Shown piece by piece: positions 32,030 to 43,674 of a stretch of DNA of 64,000 nucleotides. The DNA comes from Marivirga arenosa (GTDB taxonomy: Bacteria > Bacteroidota > Bacteroidia > Cytophagales > Cyclobacteriaceae), in contig NZ_CP129968.2 of the NCBI RefSeq assembly GCF_030503875.2, forward strand, positions 3,684,001 to 3,748,000, read 5' to 3'. The stretch's first letter is position 1. Every line of letters begins with the position of its first letter. The position numbers and the translations under genes were made by a program. The notes below the pieces were generated by a model. The model did not search any database. It saw only the letters and a list, made by a program, of their open reading frames with translations, and was not told the origin of the DNA.

Positions 32030-32167
32030 ATTGGAAGGTTTTAGTTGAACTTGAATCCTTATACAAATTCGCACTTTTAAAGCAGGAATGCAATACCTAT
32101 TTATGGGTAAGTTCGCTTTGAGTGGAGAATTTGAAATCTGTAAAATTTCAAAAAACTCCATTTTTTC

Positions 32168-32265
32168 ATTACATTTAGCGCATCAGTTCATTTACAACCA
32201 AAACCTAATGCTCAGCTTTATTTTTTGAATTGTGAGGACTGACAAAATAGATATATCATCACCTA
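32168..32265. repeat. 98-bp direct repeat, copy A
   Basis: This stretch matches 35891-35988 with 6 mismatches in 98 bases and the same orientation. Copy A lies 5' of the HEPN-motif gene, copy B 5' of the serine hydrolase gene. In both cases a hairpin region and then a GTTAGC motif follow before the next start codon. Confidence 0.85.
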
Positions 32266-32309
32266 GGGGTGACGATATATAAATATAGTCACCAGGGGGT
32301 AACTATATT
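32251..32309. repeat. Two tandem imperfect hairpins
   Basis: ATATATCATCACC and GGTGACGATATAT (32251-32280) and AATATAGTCACC and GGTAACTATATT (32282-32309) each form a 12-13 bp stem with one mismatch. The two share the arrangement ATAT-TCACC-loop-GGTGA-ATAT and stand between repeat copy A and the next gene. Confidence 0.65.
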
Positions 32310-32353
32310 CAGTTGTTAGCCACAAGGTGAAAACCAATCTACAAGAATAAAAA

Positions 32354-33931
32354 ATGGAGAAAGATTATTTTCTTTTAGAGGACAAAAAAAAGGAAATTGA
32401 ATCCAAGTTCTTAATCAAAAATGGTTGGCTGAAAATTTATGAAGATGATTCTAAAGACTTTGACGATTCTGCTGGATTATATTGTTGTCTAATATCAAAC
32501 GACAAAGTTGAGAAATACAGTCAAGATTATAATTGGCCACTTTCAATGGGAAGTGAAGGAAAGCCATCTGTTTACGGAGACAACACGTATAAATCAAATG
32601 ACGAAGAAGGTTTAGAACCTTTTTTATTCTACAAAAGCTTTTCATTACAAGAAACTTCAATAAAATATATAGATGTTGCAGAAGAATTTATTCTCTACTT
32701 TCGACTTTACGAAAAAGGGAATGACAAACAAAACCGCACATTTTATTATGTAAGCGATTATGGAGAATTAGATGAAGTTCTAATCATTGAACCAAAATTG
32801 ATTAAGGTAAAAATCAAGTATTTGAGGGAATATATCACAATGAGAGATATGAACTTCGTAGTATGCTATGATTTTATGAGATTGCTAAAAGAAATCCCTT
32901 CAGATTGGAACATCAAACACAAGGATAAATTAATCAAAGAAAACGACTTTATTTATAGTCATTTAATTCGCAATGTATCCGACAAAACTCAAAGTTGGAT
33001 TATGGGAAAAGTATTTATTAAACCAAATGAATTAAAGAAATCACATTTTGACTTTGGAGAAGCAAAAAATGAAAGATTTATAATCGGAATTGATGACGAA
33101 GGAGAATTAATTTATGAAGATTGCGGAAAAACAGACGGCAATCATTTTAAAGTTACTTATTTCAAAAAAGAGGTTTTAAACAAATACTACAATGAACCAA
33201 ACAAATATCAAGTTGATGGATTTAGTGTTGGCTCAAAGTTTTTTAGATTAAAAATAGACAATAATGTAGATGAATACATTCCTGTCTTTCTTACCAATTT
33301 GAGAATGCTTCCAGAAAAGGAACAACTTCATTGGAAACAATATAATATTCCACCAAAAGAGGGAATGAATATTAGTAGAACTTATTACAGAACAATGATA
33401 GAAGGTCAATGGGCAGAACAACCTGAAACTGTTGACTTGTTCTTTAAATCAAAGTATAAAAGCTTCAATAAAAAATGGCAAGAAAAGTTTGGTTGGCAAT
33501 TGTACAAACCATTATCAAAAAAAGATGAGCATCTATTTACTGCATTACATAAAATAACAACAAATAACGTTAAAGCTTTCTGTGAGCAAACTCTAACAAT
33601 AGTAAAACTGACTATTGATAGACTTAATGAAAAGGAATTGGCAAAAGGGTTAGATTTAGAGTCAAAAATTCGAGGAATTGGAAAGTTTGAAAAGTTTTTA
33701 GAGTCAAAAGGAATGAATATTCCCGATATGTTTGTGTTTTTAAGAAATCTTCAAAATTTAAGGTCTGGACTAATTGCCCATACATTTAGTGAGTCTAATA
33801 AAGACTGTAAAAAAGCTATTGAATATTTTGGAATTACAGATAGCAATTACATTGAAGTTTTGGAAGAAATATTTGTAAAATCAATATTTACATTTAATAC
33901 TCTGGAAAAATTTTTTGAGTTGAAAGAATAA
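32354..33931 (+). CDS. Uncharacterised protein with a C-terminal HEPN-like Rx5H motif
   Basis: 525 aa, cytoplasmic, no known family recognised. The N-terminal 350 residues are mixed alpha/beta with many aromatic and charged residues. The C-terminal 150 residues are helical and contain R470-S-G-L-I-A-H476 in LRNLQNLRSGLIAHTFSES, the Rx4-6H spacing of HEPN ribonucleases. HEPN proteins act in abortive infection and toxin-antitoxin systems, but this remains a motif-level inference. It lies between a GTTAGCC core (32315-32321) and an attC-like element (33941-34071), so it looks like a gene cassette. Confidence 0.6.
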   Translation: MEKDYFLLEDKKKEIESKFLIKNGWLKIYEDDSKDFDDSAGLYCCLISNDKVEKYSQDYNWPLSMGSEGKPSVYGDNTYKSNDEEGLEPFLFYKSFSLQETSIKYIDVAEEFILYFRLYEKGNDKQNRTFYYVSDYGELDEVLIIEPKLIKVKIKYLREYITMRDMNFVVCYDFMRLLKEIPSDWNIKHKDKLIKENDFIYSHLIRNVSDKTQSWIMGKVFIKPNELKKSHFDFGEAKNERFIIGIDDEGELIYEDCGKTDGNHFKVTYFKKEVLNKYYNEPNKYQVDGFSVGSKFFRLKIDNNVDEYIPVFLTNLRMLPEKEQLHWKQYNIPPKEGMNISRTYYRTMIEGQWAEQPETVDLFFKSKYKSFNKKWQEKFGWQLYKPLSKKDEHLFTALHKITTNNVKAFCEQTLTIVKLTIDRLNEKELAKGLDLESKIRGIGKFEKFLESKGMNIPDMFVFLRNLQNLRSGLIAHTFSESNKDCKKAIEYFGITDSNYIEVLEEIFVKSIFTFNTLEKFFELKE

Positions 33932-33940
33932 AAGCCCCAT

Positions 33941-34071
33941 GGCTAACAATGTATATAAAAAATAGCGGTTTTATCGCTTTAAGGAAACAAAATGAATAAA
34001 TTAAAGGTCAGTAATAAACCAAAAAGTCAGTGAGGAAAACTCGCTACTTTTCATATACGAGACCGTTAGGC
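33941..34071. repeat. attC-like intergenic element, copy 1
   Basis: 131 bp starting 10 bases after a stop codon. GGCTAAC (33941-33947) and GTTAGGC (34065-34071) are the outer cores, the second matching GTTRRRY. Inside, GTATATAAAAAATAGCG (33951-33967) pairs with CGCTACTTTTCATATAC (34042-34058) at 15 of 17 positions; the centre is unpaired. The layout matches an integron attC site but no integrase is present in the window. Confidence 0.6.
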
Positions 34072-34094
34072 TAAATTGATATGTCATCAAAAAA

Positions 34095-34649
34095 ATGATT
34101 TATATATTCCTAAGTATCTGTTTTCAGTTAATCAGCATAAATTCAACTTCAACCTTTGATCAATTCTTCAAAGCTTCATTGGATAACTATTTAAGCAAAC
34201 CTTTAGATTTTCCGGCAAATCTGGAAAATGAAATTTTATATCGCTGTATTTATGACTTTAATAATGACGGTTTAAATGATGTGGCTCTAAGTGGTCAAAA
34301 ATCAGGAGTCTTCGGAAAAGGCGGAGGAGAATGGTATATATATTTTCAAGGAGACTCATTTAAAAGTAATGAGAGCCAAAAGACTATGCTTCTAGGTTGC
34401 GACTTTAGTGGTATTATTGATCAAAATAAAATACTATTTTTCAATTCTTATGGTTGTTGTGCTGGTGAATTAATTGAGTACACCTTTTATGGGAATTCTT
34501 TCGAAATGATATCTAAAACATTAGAAAACAGTGAAAAATACGACCTGTGGAGCGAAATAAATAAAAGCTTCGAGAAGCTGGATAAATTACCATTTCAAGA
34601 AATTAAATATTCTGATTTAATTGAAGGTAAAGCATGGAACGATAAATAA
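34095..34649 (+). CDS. Small exported protein with a calcium-loop-like motif
   Basis: 184 aa with a hydrophobic N-terminus (about 1-15), followed by CIYDFNNDGLNDVALSG (about residues 51-67), an Asp/Asn-rich loop like the FG-GAP or EF-hand-like motif that binds calcium, and a GKGGGEWYIYFQG stretch. Four cysteines include GCC at about 119-121. Function unknown. It starts 23 bases after the GTTAGGC core, consistent with a cassette-borne gene. Confidence 0.6.
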   Translation: MIYIFLSICFQLISINSTSTFDQFFKASLDNYLSKPLDFPANLENEILYRCIYDFNNDGLNDVALSGQKSGVFGKGGGEWYIYFQGDSFKSNESQKTMLLGCDFSGIIDQNKILFFNSYGCCAGELIEYTFYGNSFEMISKTLENSEKYDLWSEINKSFEKLDKLPFQEIKYSDLIEGKAWNDK

Positions 34650-34741
34650 AACGTAGCCTTCATTCCCGCATGCTTTGCATGCTTAGAAATTATTATCAAT
34701 ACCTTAAGACTTAAACACCAAGCCTGCTTATGAAATAGGCT
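34650..34741. other. Non-coding stretch before the tandem repeat
   Basis: Contains two small palindromes: GCATGC-TTT-GCATGC at 34668-34682 and AAGCCT/AGGCTT near 34720-34742. No gene is seen. Confidence 0.5.
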
Positions 34742-34971
34742 TCCTGCGTCATTTTACCCTCTCCTGCGTGAATATGACCCTTTCCTGCGAGACTATTGAG
34801 GCTTCCTGCGGCACTAATACCCTTTCCTGCGCCATTTTTACCCCTTCCTGCGGTACTTTAATGGCTTCCTGCGTGACTTATACCCCTTCCTGCGCCAAGT
34901 TGGGGGCTTCCTGCGAGACTTTTGACCTCTCATGCGCCAAATTATCAATTTCCTGCGCACTTATCAGCATG
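34742..34971 (+). repeat. 21-bp tandem repeat, 11 units
   Basis: Units begin TCCTGCG at 34742, 34762, 34783, 34804, 34825, 34846, 34867, 34888, 34909, 34930 and 34951; spacing is exactly 21 from the second on. The first eight bases are nearly constant and the rest varies. One frame (GTG at 34768 to 34980) is open and would give a 70-aa peptide of heptads with an invariant Ser-Cys pair; in the unit at 34930 a base change leaves the Ser unchanged. Expression is not established. Confidence 0.85.
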
Positions 34972-34982
34972 GCTGTATGAAA

Positions 34983-35011
34983 AAAGCCCTCCTGAATTCA
35001 GGAAGGCTTTG
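34983..35011 (-). terminator. Terminator downstream of the 236-aa protein gene
   Basis: AAAGCC and GGCTTT flank the palindrome TCCTGAATTCAGGA, giving a long stem. On the - strand it is followed by a T6 run. Confidence 0.8.
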
Positions 35012-35013
35012 TA

Positions 35014-35724
35014 TTATGAGGCTTGTCTCATCCTAAAATATCGGCTCGAATAGCCTTTTCGTCTCGCTTCATCTTTCCAGAAGACGTATTTACCAGCTTC
35101 ATAGATTTCATCTACTGCTTGTTTTAAATAGCTGTAGGCTTTATCACGGGTAATTTTGGGGCTGCTATTTTCTTTACGCTCACCATTCGCCTTGGCTAAT
35201 AAAATGCTCATTTCAGAAGCCTGACTAGCCGCAAGGTGTAGTTTATCTTCCTCAAAATTAATAGCTTTTAAGAGCGGTAAATTGGCTAAACCCAAGGCTG
35301 CTAAGTCACTTAAATCCTGCACTAAGTCGGCATTGGAAGTGCCTTGCTCCACTCCTTGCACTTTGGATAGTAAATCCTGTCTTTTTCGGAAAGCAAAACG
35401 GAAGGCGTGTTCAATTTCATTTTTCAAGTCTACCGCTTTCGGGCTCATTTCGTCCCACTCCTGCTGGGCTTCTTCTTTGGTGTATTGATCTTTATTCCAG
35501 ATGGATTGAGCATAGCGTAAAGCTCCAATTCGAGCCTCAAATTCATCGAAATAATTTTTGGGCACTCCTACCTCAATTAATTGCTTTTGATCGGCTTTAC
35601 TCCATTCGAATAAATCGGAGGCTTCCTGCAAGTAAACGTCAACAGGCATGTTAGGAATTTTCGTTTCTGCCGCTTCCATAGCCGCAATGCTCCCCTTTAG
35701 GGTTTCAAAGTTCTCTTTGGACAT
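35014..35724 (-). CDS. Helical protein of unknown function
   Basis: 236 aa, soluble, strongly alpha-helical, rich in Glu, Lys and Ala with no signal peptide. Possible coiled-coil stretches at about residues 60-120, and a basic C-terminus (RRKGYSSRYFRMRQAS). No family is recognised. It is the only - strand gene in this part of the accessory region, is followed by its own terminator, and directly borders the 21-bp tandem repeat on its 3' side and the 98-bp repeat copy B on its 5' side. Confidence 0.65.
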   Translation of the reverse strand: MSKENFETLKGSIAAMEAAETKIPNMPVDVYLQEASDLFEWSKADQKQLIEVGVPKNYFDEFEARIGALRYAQSIWNKDQYTKEEAQQEWDEMSPKAVDLKNEIEHAFRFAFRKRQDLLSKVQGVEQGTSNADLVQDLSDLAALGLANLPLLKAINFEEDKLHLAASQASEMSILLAKANGERKENSSPKITRDKAYSYLKQAVDEIYEAGKYVFWKDEARRKGYSSRYFRMRQAS

Positions 35725-35890
35725 AATCTTATGTTTTGGTTGATACTTATTAAAGCCTCAATATATAGCGTACGAAAGTATATGTCAAGAACTTTTAGTG
35801 TAAATATTTTAGGAGTATTAGATTTATCATATAAGCTTATCCTATTATCTAGCCGTTATCAACTACTATTTTCTTTCTTTAAGGATTTTA

Positions 35891-35988
35891 ATTACATTTA
35901 TTGCATCAGTTCATATACAAGCAAAACCTAATGCTCAGCTTTATTTTTTGAATTGTGATGACTGACATAATAGATATATCATCACCTA
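35891..35988. repeat. 98-bp direct repeat, copy B
   Basis: Second copy of the repeat at 32168-32265 (6 mismatches). A short palindrome, ATAGTTGT and ACAACTAT (35988-36009), follows. About 100 bases later GTTAGCG (36094-36100) precedes the serine hydrolase gene. Confidence 0.85.
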
Positions 35989-36127
35989 TAGTTGTATATA
36001 AACAACTATTGTAAGCACCGATATGAATACAATAAAAAATCCGTTAGATTAGTGCTAAAAATATATAAACGCAATAATAGCGTTTGCACAATTGTTAGCG
36101 GTGATTTAAAATACTAATCACAACTGA

Positions 36128-37531
36128 ATGAAGCAACATTTGAAATATATAGGGATACTGATAATAACACTTTCAATATCCAATTTGAAAGCTCAGGAAT
36201 CTATTGACTCACTGGTGGGCACTTATATGTCGACAAATAAAATACCAGGACTTTCTCTTGCCATTATTGAAAATGACAGTGTTAAAACAATAAAAGCTTA
36301 CGGTCTATCAAGTATTCAAAATGATGTGAAAGTTGACGTCAACACTACTTTCGAACTTGCATCTTTAACGAAACAATTTACTGCGGCTGCCATTCTAAAA
36401 CTTCAACAAGATGGCAAATTAAACGTAGATGAATATTTGCATCAGTATTTCCCTGAATGTCCAGAGCGTTGGAAAGCGATAACTATAAAACAATTGCTAT
36501 GGCATACTTCAGGATTACCGGGTATGTTTCCACATGACAATTTCACACAAAAATCATTTACGGGCTATTCTAAAATGACAGCTGCGCAATTAGACATCAT
36601 GATGCAAACAAATACTGTCAGTAAAGATTTAGCAATAAAGTCCATTATTACGGATTCACTCGATTTTAAACCAGGTTCTGCCTACAACTATAGTGATGTT
36701 GGATATTTATTGTTAGGGATTGTCATTGACAATATAACAGGTAGTTATAAAGACTATTTGACGGATATTTTTGACCAAAATGGTTTGCTGAATACTTATT
36801 TCGTTAATCAGGAAAAAGTTGTTAAAAATCAAGCAAGGGGTTACTCTCTAAAAGATGGAGAATGGATAAACATAATGAGAACATGGGACTATGAAATACC
36901 TTCCCATTTCGGTGTCTTTTCGAATTTATCGGATTTAATGAAATGGTATAAAGTAATCTCGGGAAATGACTTTCTTAATGAGACTAACCAAAATTTTCTG
37001 TTCTCGAAAGGTACACTAAATGACAAATCAAAAATTGCTTATGGTGGTGGTTGGGAGATTAATGATATCAATGGATTAAAATTCATTAGTCACACAGGAG
37101 TAACAGGAACTATTTTGGTCAACATTCCGCAAAAAAGCACCACAGTTATCATACTTTCAAATTTAGGATATAATGGAAACGACATGGTAAATCCTTGGAA
37201 TTTAGCTTATGAAATAATTAATAAGATAGGAATAGAAACCAAAATTAATCGCAGTCATGTTACCTCAAGTGGACTTAAACAAATAGAGCCGAATAAAGCA
37301 GCTTTTAGAAATCTGACGGGTACATATTTTACAGCGGACAGCCTAGAAGCTAAAATATATATAGAAAGTGGGAAGGCTTATTTTGAAAGTCAAGGAAGTA
37401 AGAATGAATTATCTCTATTAGAAAATGGAAGTTGGCTTGTGCTATGGTTCGATTATGAGTATATACTAACGTTAGATGAAAATGGACAAATATTGGAATC
37501 GAATTACGGAAGAATATTTAAGAAAGAATAA
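36128..37531 (+). CDS. Serine hydrolase of the beta-lactamase/penicillin-binding family
   Basis: 467 aa with a signal peptide (1-22, ending LKAQ). The active-site SxxK is S79-L-T-K82 in ELASLTKQFTAA. The second motif, normally YxN, reads YSD in PGSAYNYSDVGYLLLG (about 188-203), and HTGVTGT (about 317-323) takes the KTG place. A beta-rich C-terminal domain fills residues 390-467. These class C-like hydrolases are mostly esterases or peptidases of unknown substrate, not resistance enzymes. It starts 27 bases after a GTTAGCG core and ends 7 bases before the second attC-like element. Confidence 0.88.
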   Translation: MKQHLKYIGILIITLSISNLKAQESIDSLVGTYMSTNKIPGLSLAIIENDSVKTIKAYGLSSIQNDVKVDVNTTFELASLTKQFTAAAILKLQQDGKLNVDEYLHQYFPECPERWKAITIKQLLWHTSGLPGMFPHDNFTQKSFTGYSKMTAAQLDIMMQTNTVSKDLAIKSIITDSLDFKPGSAYNYSDVGYLLLGIVIDNITGSYKDYLTDIFDQNGLLNTYFVNQEKVVKNQARGYSLKDGEWINIMRTWDYEIPSHFGVFSNLSDLMKWYKVISGNDFLNETNQNFLFSKGTLNDKSKIAYGGGWEINDINGLKFISHTGVTGTILVNIPQKSTTVIILSNLGYNGNDMVNPWNLAYEIINKIGIETKINRSHVTSSGLKQIEPNKAAFRNLTGTYFTADSLEAKIYIESGKAYFESQGSKNELSLLENGSWLVLWFDYEYILTLDENGQILESNYGRIFKKE

Positions 37532-37538
37532 AAACCAC

Positions 37539-37669
37539 AGCTAACAAGGTATATAAAAAATAGGCGAAACAGTAGTAAAATCAAGGGTTTTAGCTCGTGT
37601 CAAACTTTATGCTTAACCTAAAGTAAAGCGCTTCGAAATCGCCTACTTTTCATATACTAATCGTTACAG
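37539..37669. repeat. attC-like intergenic element, copy 2
   Basis: 131 bp, the same length as copy 1, starting 7 bases after a stop codon. AGCTAAC (37539-37545) and GTTACAG (37663-37669) are the outer cores. GTATATAAAAAATAGGCGA (37549-37567) pairs with TCGCCTACTTTTCATATAC (37639-37657) at 17 of 19 positions. The AAAATAG/CTACTTTT part is the same as in copy 1, but the inner stem differs and remains paired, as expected for a selected structure. Confidence 0.65.
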
Positions 37670-37679
37670 TAAATCCTCC

Positions 37680-38183
37680 ATGAATCACTCATTAATGACG
37701 ACAATATTTTTGCTTTTCACAATAACTGTTTTCGGTCAAACTGATGGAATAACAGAGATTAAGAAACTATACAATGAGACTCAAGACAATAAATCAACCT
37801 ATAAGACGCTGACAGCAGATGATTTTGAAAATTCATCCGAGGGCGGAGAATTAAAAGCATTTAAGGATTCACAAGAAGTTCGTTTAATCGAGGCAAGGTA
37901 CTATGGGCACATGGGTAAGACCGTGGCGGAATTCTATTACCTGAACGGACAAATTTACTTTATTTTCCTCAAGGAATTTAGATATAACATGCCACCTACA
38001 GAATCGGGGTACGATCAGGACAAAACCACAATTGAAGAATCTCGATACTATTTTTGGGACAACAGAATGATCCGCTGGATCAGCCCAGATGGTGAGTATG
38101 TGGATACGAAATCACCTGAATTCCTAAAGACATCAAAAGAGAATTATGACTGGGCTGATGAACTTTTGGAAACAGTTAAATAA
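37680..38183 (+). CDS. Small exported protein of unknown function
   Basis: 167 aa with a signal peptide (1-19, ending VFGQ). The mature part is acidic, with YYGHMGKTVAEFYYLNGQIYFIF (beta-hairpin-like) and SRYYFWDNRMIRWISPDG towards the C-terminus, reminiscent of small Bacteroidota secreted proteins of unknown role. It starts 10 bases after the GTTACAG core of an attC-like element and a TAAC motif lies 8 bases after its stop. Confidence 0.65.
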   Translation: MNHSLMTTIFLLFTITVFGQTDGITEIKKLYNETQDNKSTYKTLTADDFENSSEGGELKAFKDSQEVRLIEARYYGHMGKTVAEFYYLNGQIYFIFLKEFRYNMPPTESGYDQDKTTIEESRYYFWDNRMIRWISPDGEYVDTKSPEFLKTSKENYDWADELLETVK

Positions 38184-38409
38184 AGTCTGTAACACTAAGT
38201 ATAAACCATACGCTTCAGCAGTTTCTTGCAAGCAAAACAGTTGATTACCGCAATTTTTGGCTGGCAGGATCATAGTCTCATTGGAACTTTAGTAAGCAAA
38301 GCAACCGAGCCATTGGTAACAAAGTAAAAATTGCTATCTTCATTACCTTAATTAATAGTGGCACACGGTATTTACACGCGCCCGATACTTGCAATTAAGA
38401 AGATGAAGT

Positions 38410-39693
38410 ATGAAAGCTGTTTTTATAGTAATTAGTCTACTTGTCTCAATAAAATTATATGCTCAGTCAGATAGTGTATATACTCAATCCTATTTAGACA
38501 AGAGTACTCGATTTGCTTGGCTGACATATGGTGGTGATTTGAACTATTTGAGTGGTGGCACAACACAGCAATTTATTAATGGTGTTAAGCAAGATACCGA
38601 TTTTGGAAGTACCTTAATGCCCAGGTTGACTATTGGTGGTATTCACTTTTGGGGTCATGCGGACTTCTATGTAACTTTCCCATTATCCTTTTTAAGGCTG
38701 CAAGATAAACCAAGTGGACTAAATCAATTAGATATTTATCAAGGAGTTGAAACAGGTATGCGACTCTACCCCTTAAAACTTCAACCCCAAAGATTAAGCC
38801 CCTTTTTAGGTATTAGTTTCAGGAGGTTTCGTTTTTCTCAGGAATCAGAACAGAGTAATAGTAGCAAGGGTGTTCCATCCTATGGTCGCTTTATTCATCC
38901 CTTACAGTTTGGATTAACTTACACATCTGATAAGTGGCATATTTCGGCATCAGGATATAATAACTATCAAAATGAATTTGACTATTATATTTCCCCAACC
39001 GAAACAGCTAATGTCAGATTGAATCCCGTATCGGTTAATTTAAGTTTGCTGAGATATATTGACACAGACCGGCACTTTAGAACACCTAGTGCAGCGAGGC
39101 AATTAAATGATTATTATAAAAAACTTAAAAGTGAAAACTTATTGAGTGCCTGGTTTTTTGGAATAGGACCTTCAGCTGCCTTACAAATGAATAAATCTAC
39201 TTATTTGAAGGAAAACCATCCATTTTTATATGATAATTATTCTGCTGCTATTCTACCTGACCTCACTTTTGGTAGATATTTCAATAATATCGATGCAAAT
39301 TTAAATTTGGCTTACCGAACTTATGGTGACCGGTTTGAAGGTTTTGGCACTGAAATTAGAACTAGAAGACATTCAGTTGGATTTGAGTCCGTTAAATTCC
39401 TTTTCAACTACCTCGGTTTTGTCCCTTTTGTAGGGCCAATCCTTTCCTACGAAAACCTGAATACCACAGTAAATGGTATCAATTACTCTGAAAATAAATT
39501 GGCTTTAGGCGTTACATTTGGTTGGGATATCAGGGTAACAAAGACAGGCATAAGTCTTTTGAGGACAAATCTACGTTATAATCCTAACTTACACATGAGT
39601 GTTGAAGGGGAAAAGATGATGTTCGACCATCTCGAATTCAATTTTATTCAATGGGTACAATTTATTGGCAGAAAAAAGGCCCTAAGGAAATAA
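38410..39693 (+). CDS. Exported protein, probable outer-membrane beta-barrel
   Basis: 427 aa with a signal peptide (1-18, ending LYAQ). The remainder shows alternating aromatic strands (LTIGGIHFWGHADFYVTFPLSF, FLGISFRRFRFSQES, ANLNLAYRTYGDRFEGFGTE) and ends with a short helix and basic tail, FNFIQWVQFIGRKKALRK. It is probably a surface or outer-membrane protein of unknown function. 226 non-coding bases precede it. Confidence 0.65.
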   Translation: MKAVFIVISLLVSIKLYAQSDSVYTQSYLDKSTRFAWLTYGGDLNYLSGGTTQQFINGVKQDTDFGSTLMPRLTIGGIHFWGHADFYVTFPLSFLRLQDKPSGLNQLDIYQGVETGMRLYPLKLQPQRLSPFLGISFRRFRFSQESEQSNSSKGVPSYGRFIHPLQFGLTYTSDKWHISASGYNNYQNEFDYYISPTETANVRLNPVSVNLSLLRYIDTDRHFRTPSAARQLNDYYKKLKSENLLSAWFFGIGPSAALQMNKSTYLKENHPFLYDNYSAAILPDLTFGRYFNNIDANLNLAYRTYGDRFEGFGTEIRTRRHSVGFESVKFLFNYLGFVPFVGPILSYENLNTTVNGINYSENKLALGVTFGWDIRVTKTGISLLRTNLRYNPNLHMSVEGEKMMFDHLEFNFIQWVQFIGRKKALRK

Positions 39694-39901
39694 GTTCTGA
39701 TTCGTATGAAACTAGGTAATTATCAGAAATCTTGACTCTTACTAATCACTTAATTATGATATACTTAGTATTATTTTCAATAAGAACGCACGACCATAAA
39801 ATATAAACTTCCTTAATTTCATTTAGTCTTTCCGAGAAATCATTAAGTTCCCTCATTTTGATTCATAGAAATTTGTGAAACAAATAAAAAAATGAGGAAC
39901 C

Positions 39902-40771
39902 ATGATTAAAAAGATATTCGGAATTGCCCCTACAAAAGAAAAAAATGGCTCAGCTTACATCCCATCTCCCATGGGAAGAATGCTTGGAGTAGATAAGGTA
40001 AGTGGATTTAAAGCAAGCACATTTGAAGGAAAAAAATATAGAGGCGATAAAAAGATCTTAGTGCTTTGCACTGAAGAACGCTATTTTGAAATGGCCAATG
40101 GTAAACAGTTTTCTACAGGTAATAATGTACAGGAAACCATGGTCCCGATAATGCACTTAGTGAATGGCGGCTTTGATTTTGAAGTAGTGACGCCTACAGG
40201 TAAAAAAGCTATTTTAGAAGAATGGTCAGTACCTCTCAAAGATGAGGCAGTAATCAAATTTAGAACTGAAAATCAATTAAAATTTAATAATCCATTATCA
40301 CTCAAAAAGCTTATTGAAAATGATGAGCTGAATGATACCTCAAAATACATTGCACTTTTTCTACCAGGCGGCCATGGTGCTATGGTAGGCTTACCTGAAG
40401 ATGAAAATGTAGGAAAATTGCTTCGTTGGATAAAAACATCTGATCGATACTTGGTCGCTGTATGTCATGGCCCCGCTGCTATGATAGCAAAAGATAAAAA
40501 GGATGAGCCGAACCCTTACAAGGGATATAAAATGGTTGCTTTTCCCGACAAGTTTGATAAACAGTCCCCTTCCTTGGGTTATTTACCCGGACAACTTCCA
40601 TGGTTTCAATGTGAAGCACTAGAGAAAGAAGGGATTGAAGTGATCAATGACAAAATCACAGGCGCTACTCATATCGATCGAAAGCTTATTTCAGGGGACA
40701 GTCCGAAGGCTTGTGACGAGCTAGGGAAAATAACCGTGGATACCTTATTTAAGGAATTAGAGGTTAACTAA
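39902..40771 (+). CDS. hchA: HchA/Hsp31-type glyoxalase III (DJ-1/PfpI family)
   Basis: 289 aa cytoplasmic DJ-1-superfamily protein of the Hsp31 subgroup. The active Cys is C188 in LVAVCHGPAAMIA, with the preceding Glu in LCTEERYFEMANG and the glycine-rich FLPGGHGAMVGLPE. Hsp31 proteins convert methylglyoxal to lactate and can act as chaperones. It is the first of four + strand genes (membrane protein, SDR, AraC regulator) that probably form a stress or carbonyl-detoxification cluster. Confidence 0.88.
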   Translation: MIKKIFGIAPTKEKNGSAYIPSPMGRMLGVDKVSGFKASTFEGKKYRGDKKILVLCTEERYFEMANGKQFSTGNNVQETMVPIMHLVNGGFDFEVVTPTGKKAILEEWSVPLKDEAVIKFRTENQLKFNNPLSLKKLIENDELNDTSKYIALFLPGGHGAMVGLPEDENVGKLLRWIKTSDRYLVAVCHGPAAMIAKDKKDEPNPYKGYKMVAFPDKFDKQSPSLGYLPGQLPWFQCEALEKEGIEVINDKITGATHIDRKLISGDSPKACDELGKITVDTLFKELEVN

Positions 40772-40782
40772 TAGCTTTTATA

Positions 40783-41286
40783 ATGACGGAAAACATGGAA
40801 ATTATGAAGCAGTTCGAAATATATATCGCTGCCCAGAGAGCCACTGGAATGCAAATCACCATTTTTGGTATAGCCCTTCTCCTAGTCGCTGTCCTACTGC
40901 ATTTTAGCCAGCTTAACCCTATCACTCAGGGTTTAAGAAATAGCTTTTTAGTGATCAGCATATTACTGCTAGTGAGCGGAATTGGGTTTATAGTCAATCA
41001 AAAAAGTCTTTTGAAGAGCAAAACGGAAACCTATCAAGCAGATCCTTCTGAATTCAAAAAGCAGGAAGTAGAGCGAATGGAAGGTGTGAACAAAAGTGTG
41101 CCTAAAATCATCTTGGGGCTAAGCATTATCCTGATAATCATACTCTTGGCCTTAATTTTATTGATCAAGCAACCTTTATGGAGAGGCGTATCCTACGGTA
41201 TATCGATCTATTTCCTGGGTCTTTTGATCGTAGAATCTATCTCTTACCTCTCAGTAAAGACTTACCTAAACGCTTTATTAAACTAA
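40783..41286 (+). CDS. Four-helix membrane protein of unknown function
   Basis: 167 aa with four predicted membrane segments (about residues 24-40, 51-68, 106-128 and 133-152) and a charged loop (KSKTETYQADPSEFKKQEVERMEG) between the second and third. No family is recognised. It sits between hchA and the SDR gene, 11 bases after the former. Confidence 0.7.
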   Translation: MTENMEIMKQFEIYIAAQRATGMQITIFGIALLLVAVLLHFSQLNPITQGLRNSFLVISILLLVSGIGFIVNQKSLLKSKTETYQADPSEFKKQEVERMEGVNKSVPKIILGLSIILIIILLALILLIKQPLWRGVSYGISIYFLGLLIVESISYLSVKTYLNALLN

Positions 41287-41306
41287 ACACATAAAAATAA
41301 AAAAAC

Positions 41307-42128
41307 ATGAACAAGACCATTTTAATAACAGGAGCCAGCTCAGGAATAGGAAGAGCAACTGCCTTATTATTTCAAGAAAAAGGATGGAATGTAATCGCTA
41401 CCATGCGAACACCCGAAAAGGAGTCTGAGCTTAAAGCCTTAGATAAGGTATTGGTGAATAAGCTTGATGTATTAGAAATCGATACTATCAAAAGTTCAAT
41501 AAAAGAAGGAATAGAGAAATTTGTTAAAATTGATGTGGTACTCAATAATGCCGGATACGCTTTGATGGGAACCTTTGAATCCGCCAAACGCGAAAGCATC
41601 ATCCGTCAATTTGGAGTGAATGTACAGGGGCTATTTGATGTTACGCAAGAAGTATTGCCCCACTTCAGAGCCAATAAAGACGGAATGTTTATTAACATAT
41701 CTTCTATCGGAGGAAAAATGACTTTTCCTTTAATGCCTCTTTATCATTCCACAAAGTGGGCGGTGGAAGGATTTTCAGAATCATTACGTTGGGAAATGGC
41801 GCAAATCGGAGTTGCTGTTAAATTAGTTGAACCGGGTGGTGTAGCCACTGATTTTGGTGGTCGTTCTTTAGACATGCAACATAATCCAGAACTGACAGAA
41901 TACAATGAGTTTGTAGGCGCATTTACGAAAGCTATGCAAGCTTCCATGGATCCTTCCAATATGAGCAAAGCAGAACAAATTGCAGAGGTAATTTACACAG
42001 CTGCTACCGATGGAAAAGATACTTTACGATACAGAGCAGGGGCAGATGCAGAGCAATTATTAGCAGCTCGTTCAAAAATGTCCGATGAAGAATTTTTTGC
42101 CATGCAAAAACAGCAGTTCAGCTTATAA
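41307..42128 (+). CDS. Short-chain dehydrogenase/reductase
   Basis: 273 aa NAD(P)-dependent oxidoreductase. The cofactor motif is TGASSGIGRATA (residues 8-19), NNAGYAL marks the NAG site, NISSIGG the catalytic Ser, and Y146-H-S-T-K150 the active site. The C-terminal region (after VEPGGVATDFGG) fits classical SDRs of carbonyl reduction. It follows hchA and a membrane protein and precedes an AraC regulator, so it may act on reactive aldehydes or ketones. Confidence 0.92.
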   Translation: MNKTILITGASSGIGRATALLFQEKGWNVIATMRTPEKESELKALDKVLVNKLDVLEIDTIKSSIKEGIEKFVKIDVVLNNAGYALMGTFESAKRESIIRQFGVNVQGLFDVTQEVLPHFRANKDGMFINISSIGGKMTFPLMPLYHSTKWAVEGFSESLRWEMAQIGVAVKLVEPGGVATDFGGRSLDMQHNPELTEYNEFVGAFTKAMQASMDPSNMSKAEQIAEVIYTAATDGKDTLRYRAGADAEQLLAARSKMSDEEFFAMQKQQFSL

Positions 42129-42145
42129 TGAGTTAAATTAGAGAC

Positions 42146-42170
42146 AGAGATAGGGAACAATCCTATCTCT
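42146..42170 (+). terminator. Hairpin between the SDR and AraC genes
   Basis: AGAGATAGG at 42146-42154 pairs perfectly with CCTATCTCT at 42162-42170, followed by TTTATA. It is a weak terminator or attenuator before the regulator gene. Confidence 0.6.
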
Positions 42171-42187
42171 TTATATACAAAAACAAG

Positions 42188-43099
42188 ATGGAATCTTATC
42201 AAATCAATTCAATCAGTCAGGCGCATCAAGCCATGGGGCTCCCTGCTCCCAAGCATCCTTTGGTCACGGTAGTCCAAACAAAAGATTTTGATACTAAGCT
42301 TGACTTTAATGGCGTAAAAGTCATTAATAATCTGTACCAAATTACGCTCAAACAATTAGGCTGCGGGAATTTATTTTATGGTAAAAACTCCTACGATTAT
42401 GAGGAAGGCACCTTGGTATTTACCTCCCCTGGGCAAGTAACTAGGTTTGAGGGTGAAATGCCCGCACAAGAAAGTGCTGCTGAAGGTTGGACTCTGGCTT
42501 TTCATCCTGATTTAATTAGAAAATCCACTTTATCGGATAAAATCGATAGTTATTCTTTTTTCAATTATGATGTGAATGAAGCCTTGCACCTTTCGGAGGA
42601 AGAGTTGGCTACTATAGAAGGGCTTTTAGAAAAAATAGTAAAAGAGTATAGTCAGAATTTAGACAAACATAGTCAGAACCTGATTATAACTAACATTGAA
42701 CTCCTGCTGGATTATTGCACACGATTCTATGATCGCCAATTTTATACAAGAACCAATTTAAACACCGACATCGTCTCAAAATTTGAAAGGCTCATCAAAG
42801 CCTTTTATCAAACAGAGATGGTGCATGAGATCGGTATCCCCAATGTGCAATATTTTGCAAATGAATTAAACTTCTCTGCTAACTACTTAAGTGATTTACT
42901 GAAAAAAGAAACCGGTAAATCAGCGCAAGAACACATCCATCTTTTCTTGATTGAACGTGCGAAAAACACCTTACTGAATTCTAAGCAATCCATTAGCGAG
43001 ATTGGCTATGCGCTGGGTTTTGAGTATCCGCAACACTTTAGCAATCTGTTCAAGGCCAAAACAGGTATGAGCCCGAGTGAATTTAGGAGTTTGAATTAA
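42188..43099 (+). CDS. AraC family transcriptional regulator
   Basis: 303 aa. A N-terminal sensor domain (about 1-190) is followed by a C-terminal double helix-turn-helix with FANELNFSANYLSDLLKKETG, then SISEIGYALGFEYPQHFSNLFKAKTGMSPSEFR, the standard AraC signature. It lies directly downstream of the hchA-SDR group and is likely its regulator, activated by a carbonyl or other signal. Confidence 0.92.
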   Translation: MESYQINSISQAHQAMGLPAPKHPLVTVVQTKDFDTKLDFNGVKVINNLYQITLKQLGCGNLFYGKNSYDYEEGTLVFTSPGQVTRFEGEMPAQESAAEGWTLAFHPDLIRKSTLSDKIDSYSFFNYDVNEALHLSEEELATIEGLLEKIVKEYSQNLDKHSQNLIITNIELLLDYCTRFYDRQFYTRTNLNTDIVSKFERLIKAFYQTEMVHEIGIPNVQYFANELNFSANYLSDLLKKETGKSAQEHIHLFLIERAKNTLLNSKQSISEIGYALGFEYPQHFSNLFKAKTGMSPSEFRSLN

Positions 43100-43257
43100 A
43101 ATATTGTACCAAACGGGGTATAAAAGCAATAGCGATTCAAGTATAAACTTGAGCCGTTTTTTTGCTTAATTAGGTATATTGCTATGTGAAATGAAATTTA
43201 AGAGCGCTAATTCGATAATGTTCTTAAACAGAACGTTAGCCTCAATTAAAATAAACA

Positions 43258-43674
43258 ATGTACCAAAGAATAGCACATATCGCTTTAGTAGTTGAGGATT
43301 ATGATGAGGCGATTGAATTTTATACGGAAAAGTTGGATTTTACACTTCTTGAGGACACGAGAATAGATGAAAAGAAAAGATGGGTGATGGTCGCTCCACC
43401 AGGAGCAAAAGAATGTTGCTTATTACTAGCTAAAGCTGCTAATCAAAGACAAAAGGAAAGTATAGGAAATCAATCTGGAGGACGAGTTGGATTTTTTCTA
43501 TTCACAGATGATCTGTGGCGAGATTATAACAATATGATAAATAGAAAAATAGATTTTATAAGACCTCCTTCTAAATTTGAATATGGGACTGTTGCTGTGT
43601 TTACGGATTTATATGGCAATCTTTGGGACTTGATTGAACCCAATGAAAACAATAAAGGATTAATTAAAGAATAA
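43258..43674 (+). CDS. VOC family protein (glyoxalase/bleomycin-resistance fold)
   Basis: 138 aa metal-binding VOC-fold protein. MYQRIAHIALVVEDYDEAIEFYTEKLDF is the typical first strand-helix, the metal site His is in RIAHIAL, and the second half has TVAVFTDLYGNLWDLIEPNE with the metal Glu. Substrate unknown; VOC proteins range from lactoylglutathione lyases to drug-binding proteins. It starts 16 bases after a GTTAGCC core (43235-43241), like other accessory genes here. Confidence 0.88.
   Translation: MYQRIAHIALVVEDYDEAIEFYTEKLDFTLLEDTRIDEKKRWVMVAPPGAKECCLLLAKAANQRQKESIGNQSGGRVGFFLFTDDLWRDYNNMINRKIDFIRPPSKFEYGTVAVFTDLYGNLWDLIEPNENNKGLIKE

Follow-up and report, generated by a model that had tools for sequence, protein, structure and literature searches.

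The stretch of DNA analysed here, called the window throughout, comprises 64,000 nt of the Marivirga arenosa chromosome (NZ_CP129968.2, 3,684,001-3,748,000, forward strand), in which two 131-bp elements stand directly behind genes. An earlier note, made from the letters of this DNA, had read them as attC-like sites of gene cassettes without a visible integrase, i.e., as an array resembling a CALIN (cluster of attC sites lacking integron integrases), and both lie where it had placed them. Site 1 opens with GGCTAAC at 33941, 9 bases past the stop codon ending at 33931, and closes with GTTAGGC ending at 34071, while site 2 runs from AGCTAAC at 37539, 7 bases past the stop codon ending at 37531, to GTTACAG ending at 37669. 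The sequence CTAACAANGTATATAAAAAATAG, with up to three mismatches allowed, occurs twice in the window against 0.00 occurrences expected from 100 dinucleotide shuffles, and Rfam at gathering score gave no match in the window. As the earlier note had said, the inner stems of the two sites differ in their letters but keep their pairing, and the two stem mismatches, A.C on the top strand, become T.G wobbles on the bottom strand. Our results indicate that the elements are very probably attC-like sites at the 3' ends of mobile cassettes, which would be moved by a tyrosine recombinase without the insertion of the classical integron integrase IntI, with crossover in the GTT triplet.

Site searches were made with a covariance model, R1, built from aligned sites of this family, and the features of the window are collected in Table 1. 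Cassette A is 84.2% identical over 1651 nt to an array cassette of Lacinutrix himadriensis, and the homology starts exactly at GTT 32315. To the left of this triplet, where Lacinutrix has a site and the window other DNA, there is no similarity, and on the right side the homology continues past the stop codon to AAC, beyond which the two sites differ. Cassette C, whose start and end are complementary in nine of ten letters, is 96.4% identical over 1571 nt to a genome of the same genus (G153, L202). No complete 3' site was found by R1 after the gene of cassette B, and in cassette D the remainder of the 3' site beyond CTGTAAC was not recognised by R1; positions 38191-38384 are 77% like a further record of the same genus (L212). 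Among the five cores proposed in the earlier note, 34065 and 37663 are right ends of sites and 32315 and 36094 are cassette starts by independent evidence, whereas 43235 is the end of a weak match only.

The segment 36011-36099 is identical at 82 of 89 positions, ungapped, to the genome's own integrase platform (L206:9933-10021), scoring 143 where 300 shuffles reached 36 at most, and this homology ends at GTT+3. Since ATATATAAACGCAATAATAGCGTTTGCACAATT-GTT is present twice beside different cassettes, this segment is taken as attI. PF00589 has no match inside the window and 13 in the genome. An integrase-less, CALIN-like array, as originally described, is therefore correct in so far as the window holds no intact recombinase; the earlier note had, however, missed the final codons of an integrase gene at 36011-36052. 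An attI follows these, and a related integrase is encoded elsewhere in the genome. With a relic integrase end and an attI in place, at least the part 36094-37665 is a decayed platform, and the window is probably not a plain CALIN. A 132-nt repeat (86%) lies at 32163-32294 and 35886-36017, upstream of both cassette starts, one copy adjoining the integrase relic, and about ten tandem 21-bp units with TTCCTGCG occupy 34741-34957, separating cassette B from the gene at 35014.

Table 1. Features of the cassette region in window coordinates
Feature	Position	Strand	Description
Cassette A	32315..34067	+	GTT to GTT; gene 32354-33931 (525 aa, no Pfam family) and site 1
attC-like site 1	33941..34071	+	AAC 33945-33947, stem, GTT 34065-34067; R1 E 4.9e-19; proposed fold on - strand
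Cassette B, start and gene	34065..34649	+	Starts in the right end of site 1; encodes 184-aa protein (gene 34095-34649) without Pfam family
Relic 3' end of type-I integrase gene	36011..36052	+	..DMNTIKNPLD stop
attI copy	36053..36096	+	ATATATAAACGCAATAATAGCGTTTGCACAATT then GTT, as after the genome's own integrase
Cassette C	36094..37665	+	Gene 36128-37531 (467 aa, PF00144 serine hydrolase/beta-lactamase fold) and site 2
attC-like site 2	37539..37669	+	GTT 37663-37665; R1 E 4.9e-22
Cassette D, start and gene	37663..38193	+	Gene 37680-38183 (167 aa, no Pfam family) followed by CTGTAAC, which mirrors GTTACAG
Weak site, probably decayed	43109..43239	+	R1 32.3 bits, E 0.003 genome-wide, 0.00027 in another R1 search; between AraC-type gene and glyoxalase-type gene at 43258

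The two sites belong to a large family, which was recovered both in this genome and across Bacteroidota by the kind of covariance-model search that the earlier note had proposed. With R1, 10 sites reached E 8.1e-5 or better in the own genome, and sites were also present in 49 of 59 relatives and in 63 of the 148 genomes sampled across the phylum. A two-armed site pattern with an allowed length of 99-135 nt, run over GTDB genomes, matched at least 119 stretches, mainly of Bacteroidota but also of Marinimicrobia, Calditrichaceae, Ignavibacteriae and a few records of other phyla, which may be contamination, and the length was 125-128 nt in 113 of the 122 pattern matches listed. The arm with up to two mismatches occurs in 34 of 148 genomes of the own GTDB family, compared with 4 of 148 for a reversed control pattern. 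A plasmid search with site 1 returned two records only, from Flammeovirga and Persicobacter. The two-armed pattern was also matched by 58 stretches of IMG/VR viral contigs (L314-L371), several of them 113-117 nt long, unlike the main family.

The stems of the sites covary strongly. In 47 sites aligned without structure, whose seeds share the outer arms of the search pattern, 22 pairs are formed in 93.1% of cells. Double-change cells number 102, whereas shuffled data give 29.1 and sliding the partner gives at most 42; a 17-pair stem aligns bulge-free with 94.0% of cells paired, with a one-base shift in some outer stems. At stem positions not fixed by the pattern, 111 sites hold 228 bottom-strand T.G against 9 bottom-strand C.A. 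The site is thus of a hairpin type with a preference for the bottom strand, which is clear only across many sites. Its relation to gene boundaries, without which the elements would have been simple palindromic repeats, is evident in the own genome, where all eight sites with a readable AAC core follow the stop codon of an open reading frame (ORF) by 9-14 nt; two more have lost the core and were left unscored. L063, a chance coding match, was excluded from the wobble, cassette-start and stop-distance counts.

The unit that moves is revealed by the ends of neighbouring sites. The comparison started from 267 aligned matches of three R1 searches (63 of 63, the best 150 of 172, and 54 of 54), from which 10 overlaps were removed, leaving 257 sites, 243 of them with both cores; pairs more than 4 kb apart were excluded. 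In 183 neighbouring pairs, the left flank of a site, read as reverse complement, matches the bases after the GTT of the previous site with frequencies of 0.90, 0.89, 0.86, 0.84, 0.90, 0.87 and 0.60 at positions 1-7, then shows a near-constant mismatch at position 8 (0.03) and again 0.79, 0.78 and 0.65 at positions 9-11. Against the site's own right flank the match is 0.66 at the first position and 0.33-0.38 thereafter, and in shuffled pairs it is 0.49 and then 0.28-0.35, the first value being raised because position 1 after GTT lies inside R1, whereas the remaining positions lie outside it. Summed over positions 2-10, the observed match is 6.55 against a maximum of 3.19 in 1000 shuffles. Position 8 is A in 99% of cassette starts, and in 109 of the 138 pairs with six of six matches it stands opposite a top-strand C, i.e., a wobble on the bottom strand.

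This complementarity of the two ends of one cassette identifies the gene with its 3' site as the moving unit and places the crossover in GTT: exchange inside GTT restores the outer stem only in the excised cassette, and the two stem halves accordingly agree inside one cassette but not between adjacent ones. Together with the homology that begins exactly at the core 32315 in another bacterium, it bears out the cassettes with attC-like sites that had been proposed for the window. The resulting layout is GTT-R-N6-A...gene...N7-AAC-site-GTT, and in 71 of 102 pairs of homologous cassettes the alignment ends 3-6 nt past the G of GTT. The longest ORF of a cassette (n = 183) is forward in 146 cases, reverse in 24 and shorter than 40 aa in 13, and for ORFs of at least 80 aa the ratio is 137 forward to 6 reverse. 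Within arrays the sites are oriented in the same way with a median spacing of 747 bp, one example being 12 sites in 8 kb in Tenacibaculum piscium (L082).

The search for an IntI-like or other tyrosine recombinase, also proposed earlier, led to an integrase of the array kind in the own genome: among its PF00589 matches, the one at G000:C1:248853-249977 has relatives that head arrays. Sixteen loci with integrase matches were surveyed, and here the site is found downstream of the integrase and co-oriented with it, with none on the opposite strand; fragments at L184 and L135, both divergent to the site, were excluded from this survey, and the L184 integrase enters a later count as L249, a divergent case. 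An attI-like GTT is present at 8 of the 16 loci, 27-107 bp past the integrase stop codon, and of the 10 letters scored after it, 9-10 agree with the end of the first cassette. A profile built from nine array integrases gave 39 matches above 290 bits, from which 38 regions were taken (one lay inside another), and these contain 45 sites, compared with none in 20 XerC/D regions hand-picked as controls among the lower-scoring profile matches; an XerD-like gene (G162:C1:2277878) was kept out of the controls as it adjoins an array. By manual reading, 42 of the 45 sites are downstream and co-oriented and three (L249) are divergent, and where at least 3 kb of downstream sequence exists, a site is present in 17 of 25 integrase regions. 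In the 148 genomes across the phylum, integrase and sites occur together in 39, sites only in 24, integrase only in 13 and neither in 72 (odds ratio 9.0, p 4.5e-9). Elsewhere in this genome, G000:C1:2557931-2582615 holds four copies, 7746 bp apart, of a tyrosine-recombinase pair with identical scores, which could be a tandem amplification or an assembly effect.

The array integrases resemble IntI without being classical IntI. Their TIGR02249 scores of 185-213 bits are below the cut-off of 265 in ten of ten, with alignments in two stretches and, in the proteins so listed, profile positions of about 180-238 missing; the nearest NCBI family, the XerA-type model NF040815, gives 187-226 bits, its cut-off of 220 being passed by four of ten. 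The best solved relative is an IntI (2a3v, 1.6e-41), aligned as two pieces flanking the missing segment. GLRxxE and HxLRH are 91-96 residues apart in 24 type-I array integrases and 91 apart in nine type-II ones, against 133 in 17 of 18 classical IntI (not found in one) and 96-101 in 22 XerC/D; by this test the array integrases have no IntI insertion in the catalytic domain. In a midpoint-rooted tree of 73 recombinases with long branches flagged, IntI (100/100), XerC/D (100/98) and the array integrases (99/95) form separate groups, with the array integrases outside IntI; a sister relation to IntI would depend on the root, here midpoint only, and is not established. In five genomes of other classes (G213, G221, G228, G240, G298) the integrase is shorter and points away from the array, which is the arrangement of classical integrons; these five and G002 have short integrases that lack the N-terminal extension and are divergent to arrays of this site family. 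A tyrosine recombinase of Acinetobacter plasmids (H41-H57; TnpF in one record) shares 54.4% identity with an array integrase over 226 residues.

A gene transfer described in Riemerella anatipestifer fits the same anatomy. Natural transformation was reported to bring the gene aph(3')-IVb into the chromosome without homology, invariably together with the 27 bp in front of it and the 140 bp behind it, the latter folding like attC; one gene was described, and the excerpts of that paper used here name no integrase, enzyme or site family (PMC13148043). In the plasmid of strain RCAD0416, the APH(3') gene (262 aa, L372:8053-8841), matched to the paper by strain, family and length, forms a unit of exactly these 27-bp and 140-bp lengths, bounded on both sides inside GTT, between GT and T, in which GTTGGTGGC at the start is mirrored by GCCACCAAC at the end and the stem has two top-strand A.C mismatches. 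In two R. anatipestifer plasmids, R1 sites lie directly 3' of annotated estT, tet(X), lnu(I) and blaOXA (L372 10009-10136, 11115-11244, 14370-14498 and 19840-19969; L373 2619-2750 and 7238-7365), and these plasmid clusters therefore look like arrays of this cassette system. A cassette with an EstT-type macrolide hydrolase (NF041759; L072 627-1737) is at least 99% identical in five other records (L086, L054, L041, L044, L009); its homology spans GTT to GTT in L086, L054 and L041, and the Actinobacillus record could be contamination.

We propose that the bottom strand of a site would fold into a hairpin and that a tyrosine recombinase of Bacteroidota, from a clade next to IntI that has no IntI insertion, would recombine folded sites with each other, which leads to excision, or join a folded site to the attI next to its own gene, which leads to insertion. 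With the crossover in GTT, each cassette would retain both halves of its own outer stem. The cassettes of the window stand at a decayed platform, of whose integrase gene only the last codons are left; attI persists at 36094, and another part of this chromosome has a related platform that is intact. The mechanism is strongly supported by anatomy and boundaries: the sites, their arrays, the cassette units with their ends, the linkage to the integrase and the attI copy are demonstrated here, and we infer catalysis by the type-I integrase, a single-strand substrate and present activity in this genome.

Several observations weigh against this proposal. Single-sequence folding of the two window sites is modest (z -1.4 to -2.2), and in site 1 the bottom strand is not favoured (DNA folding energy -11.6 vs -13.3 kcal/mol for the top strand); the claim that the bottom strand folds better thus agrees with site 2 (-14.0 vs -12.6 kcal/mol) and with the wobble bias of many sites, but not with site 1. 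Of the 38 integrase regions, 20 have no site (nine of these have less than 1 kb of contig downstream), and 24 of the 63 site-bearing genomes have no integrase, so that movement in trans or a loss of platforms would have to be assumed there. Six genomes have the integrase divergent rather than co-oriented. At the genome's own platform the first R1 site is 8.7 kb downstream, and the repeated ends at L206 10561, 12573 and 15088 form no convincing hairpins. R1 gives the published Riemerella site no score at E 1 or better, so that R1 undercounts the family. Folding energies were dropped as proof of strand preference, the results being mixed between the two window copies. The segments at L206 10561, 12573 and 15088, located after the own attI, mirror the start of the first cassette and are possibly another site subfamily.

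The same evidence can be set against other explanations. If the elements were ordinary cassettes of proteobacteria-type integrons moved by classical IntI, i.e., a true CALIN, the common plan of AAC/GTT cores, a bottom-strand hairpin of ~125 nt and crossover in GTT would be expected, and classical IntI is present in 46 of the 148 phylum-sample genomes. However, none is encoded in the own genome, the own class holds only one of the 46, and, unlike the insertion-less integrase, classical IntI shows no co-occurrence with the sites (odds ratio 0.54, p 0.11). The R' core consensus of classical integrons is GTTRRRY, which fits only 20 of 248 cassette starts, and we regard this origin as very unlikely. 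Service by the host XerC/XerD, as in dif-based modules, would be in line with the relationship of the array integrases to Xer and with their XerA-type nearest family, but the Xer proteins are a separate tree group, none of the 20 XerC/D control regions has a site, although Xer could act in trans, and the sites are hairpins rather than short dif-like palindromes, which makes such service extremely improbable.

High copy number, a hairpin and wide spread would suit a palindromic repeat, similar to a miniature inverted-repeat transposable element, that inserts behind genes by chance. Such a self-inserting repeat predicts a match of the left flank to the site's own right flank, whereas the match at positions 2-6 is to the right flank of the previous site (0.84-0.90 vs 0.33-0.38), and it is the gene with its site that recurs between genomes, not the site alone, so we give this explanation next to no credence.

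Compared with the canonical features of integrons (PMC8946536), the system of insertion-less integrase and cassettes shares the integrase beside attI, one gene with a 3' hairpin site, uniform orientation, the bottom-strand fold, the GTT crossover and the keeping of own half-sites. It differs in its integrase, which lacks the IntI insertion, is usually co-oriented with the array and is often N-terminally extended, and in the cassette start, which reads GTT-R-N6-A instead of GTTRRRY and has one fixed wobble and about 10 positions that can pair. The window resembles a CALIN in having cassettes without an intact integrase, but unlike a CALIN it keeps the 3' end of the integrase gene and attI. The aph(3')-IVb 3' segment of R. 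anatipestifer, as presented in the excerpts of PMC13148043, has the same architecture, with a moved unit that ends inside GTT on both sides. In their TIGR02249 scores of 185-213 bits the array integrases resemble the integron-like subgroup of simple tyrosine recombinases outlined in PMC8138268, but they differ from it in staying below the cut-off and, in some, missing an internal profile segment.

According to the sections of PMC9024848 considered here, Bacteroidetes previously had only In0, and IntegronFinder 2.0 then gave one complete integron, in Salinibacter. In the openly licensed literature, preprints excluded, we found no account of attC-like arrays across Bacteroidota or of insertion-less array integrases. 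A gene-capture system that is widespread in Bacteroidota has apparently been little noticed, and we lean towards the view that the phylum has an integron lineage of its own. Such a lineage would combine an insertion-less integrase clade with a distinct attI and a distinct site code (GTT-R-N6-A, outer stem of 11 positions, fixed wobbles); a large share of genomes would contain arrays, and the cassettes would move across classes and include known resistance genes.

The new substrate code would explain why surveys have met few Bacteroidetes integrons when 63 of 148 genomes carry these sites. Our results offer a mechanism for the homology-independent gene uptake in Riemerella, left unexplained in the parts of PMC13148043 drawn on here, and show, for several Bacteroidota, how exact cassettes come to contain genes such as estT. 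The missing part, the IntI insertion, is called essential for integron function in the portion of PMC8138268 cited here, and with an integrase that lacks it the origin of single-strand site recombination becomes testable. If the proposal is true, recombination of folded single strands needs no IntI insertion, and it may predate or parallel classical integrons.

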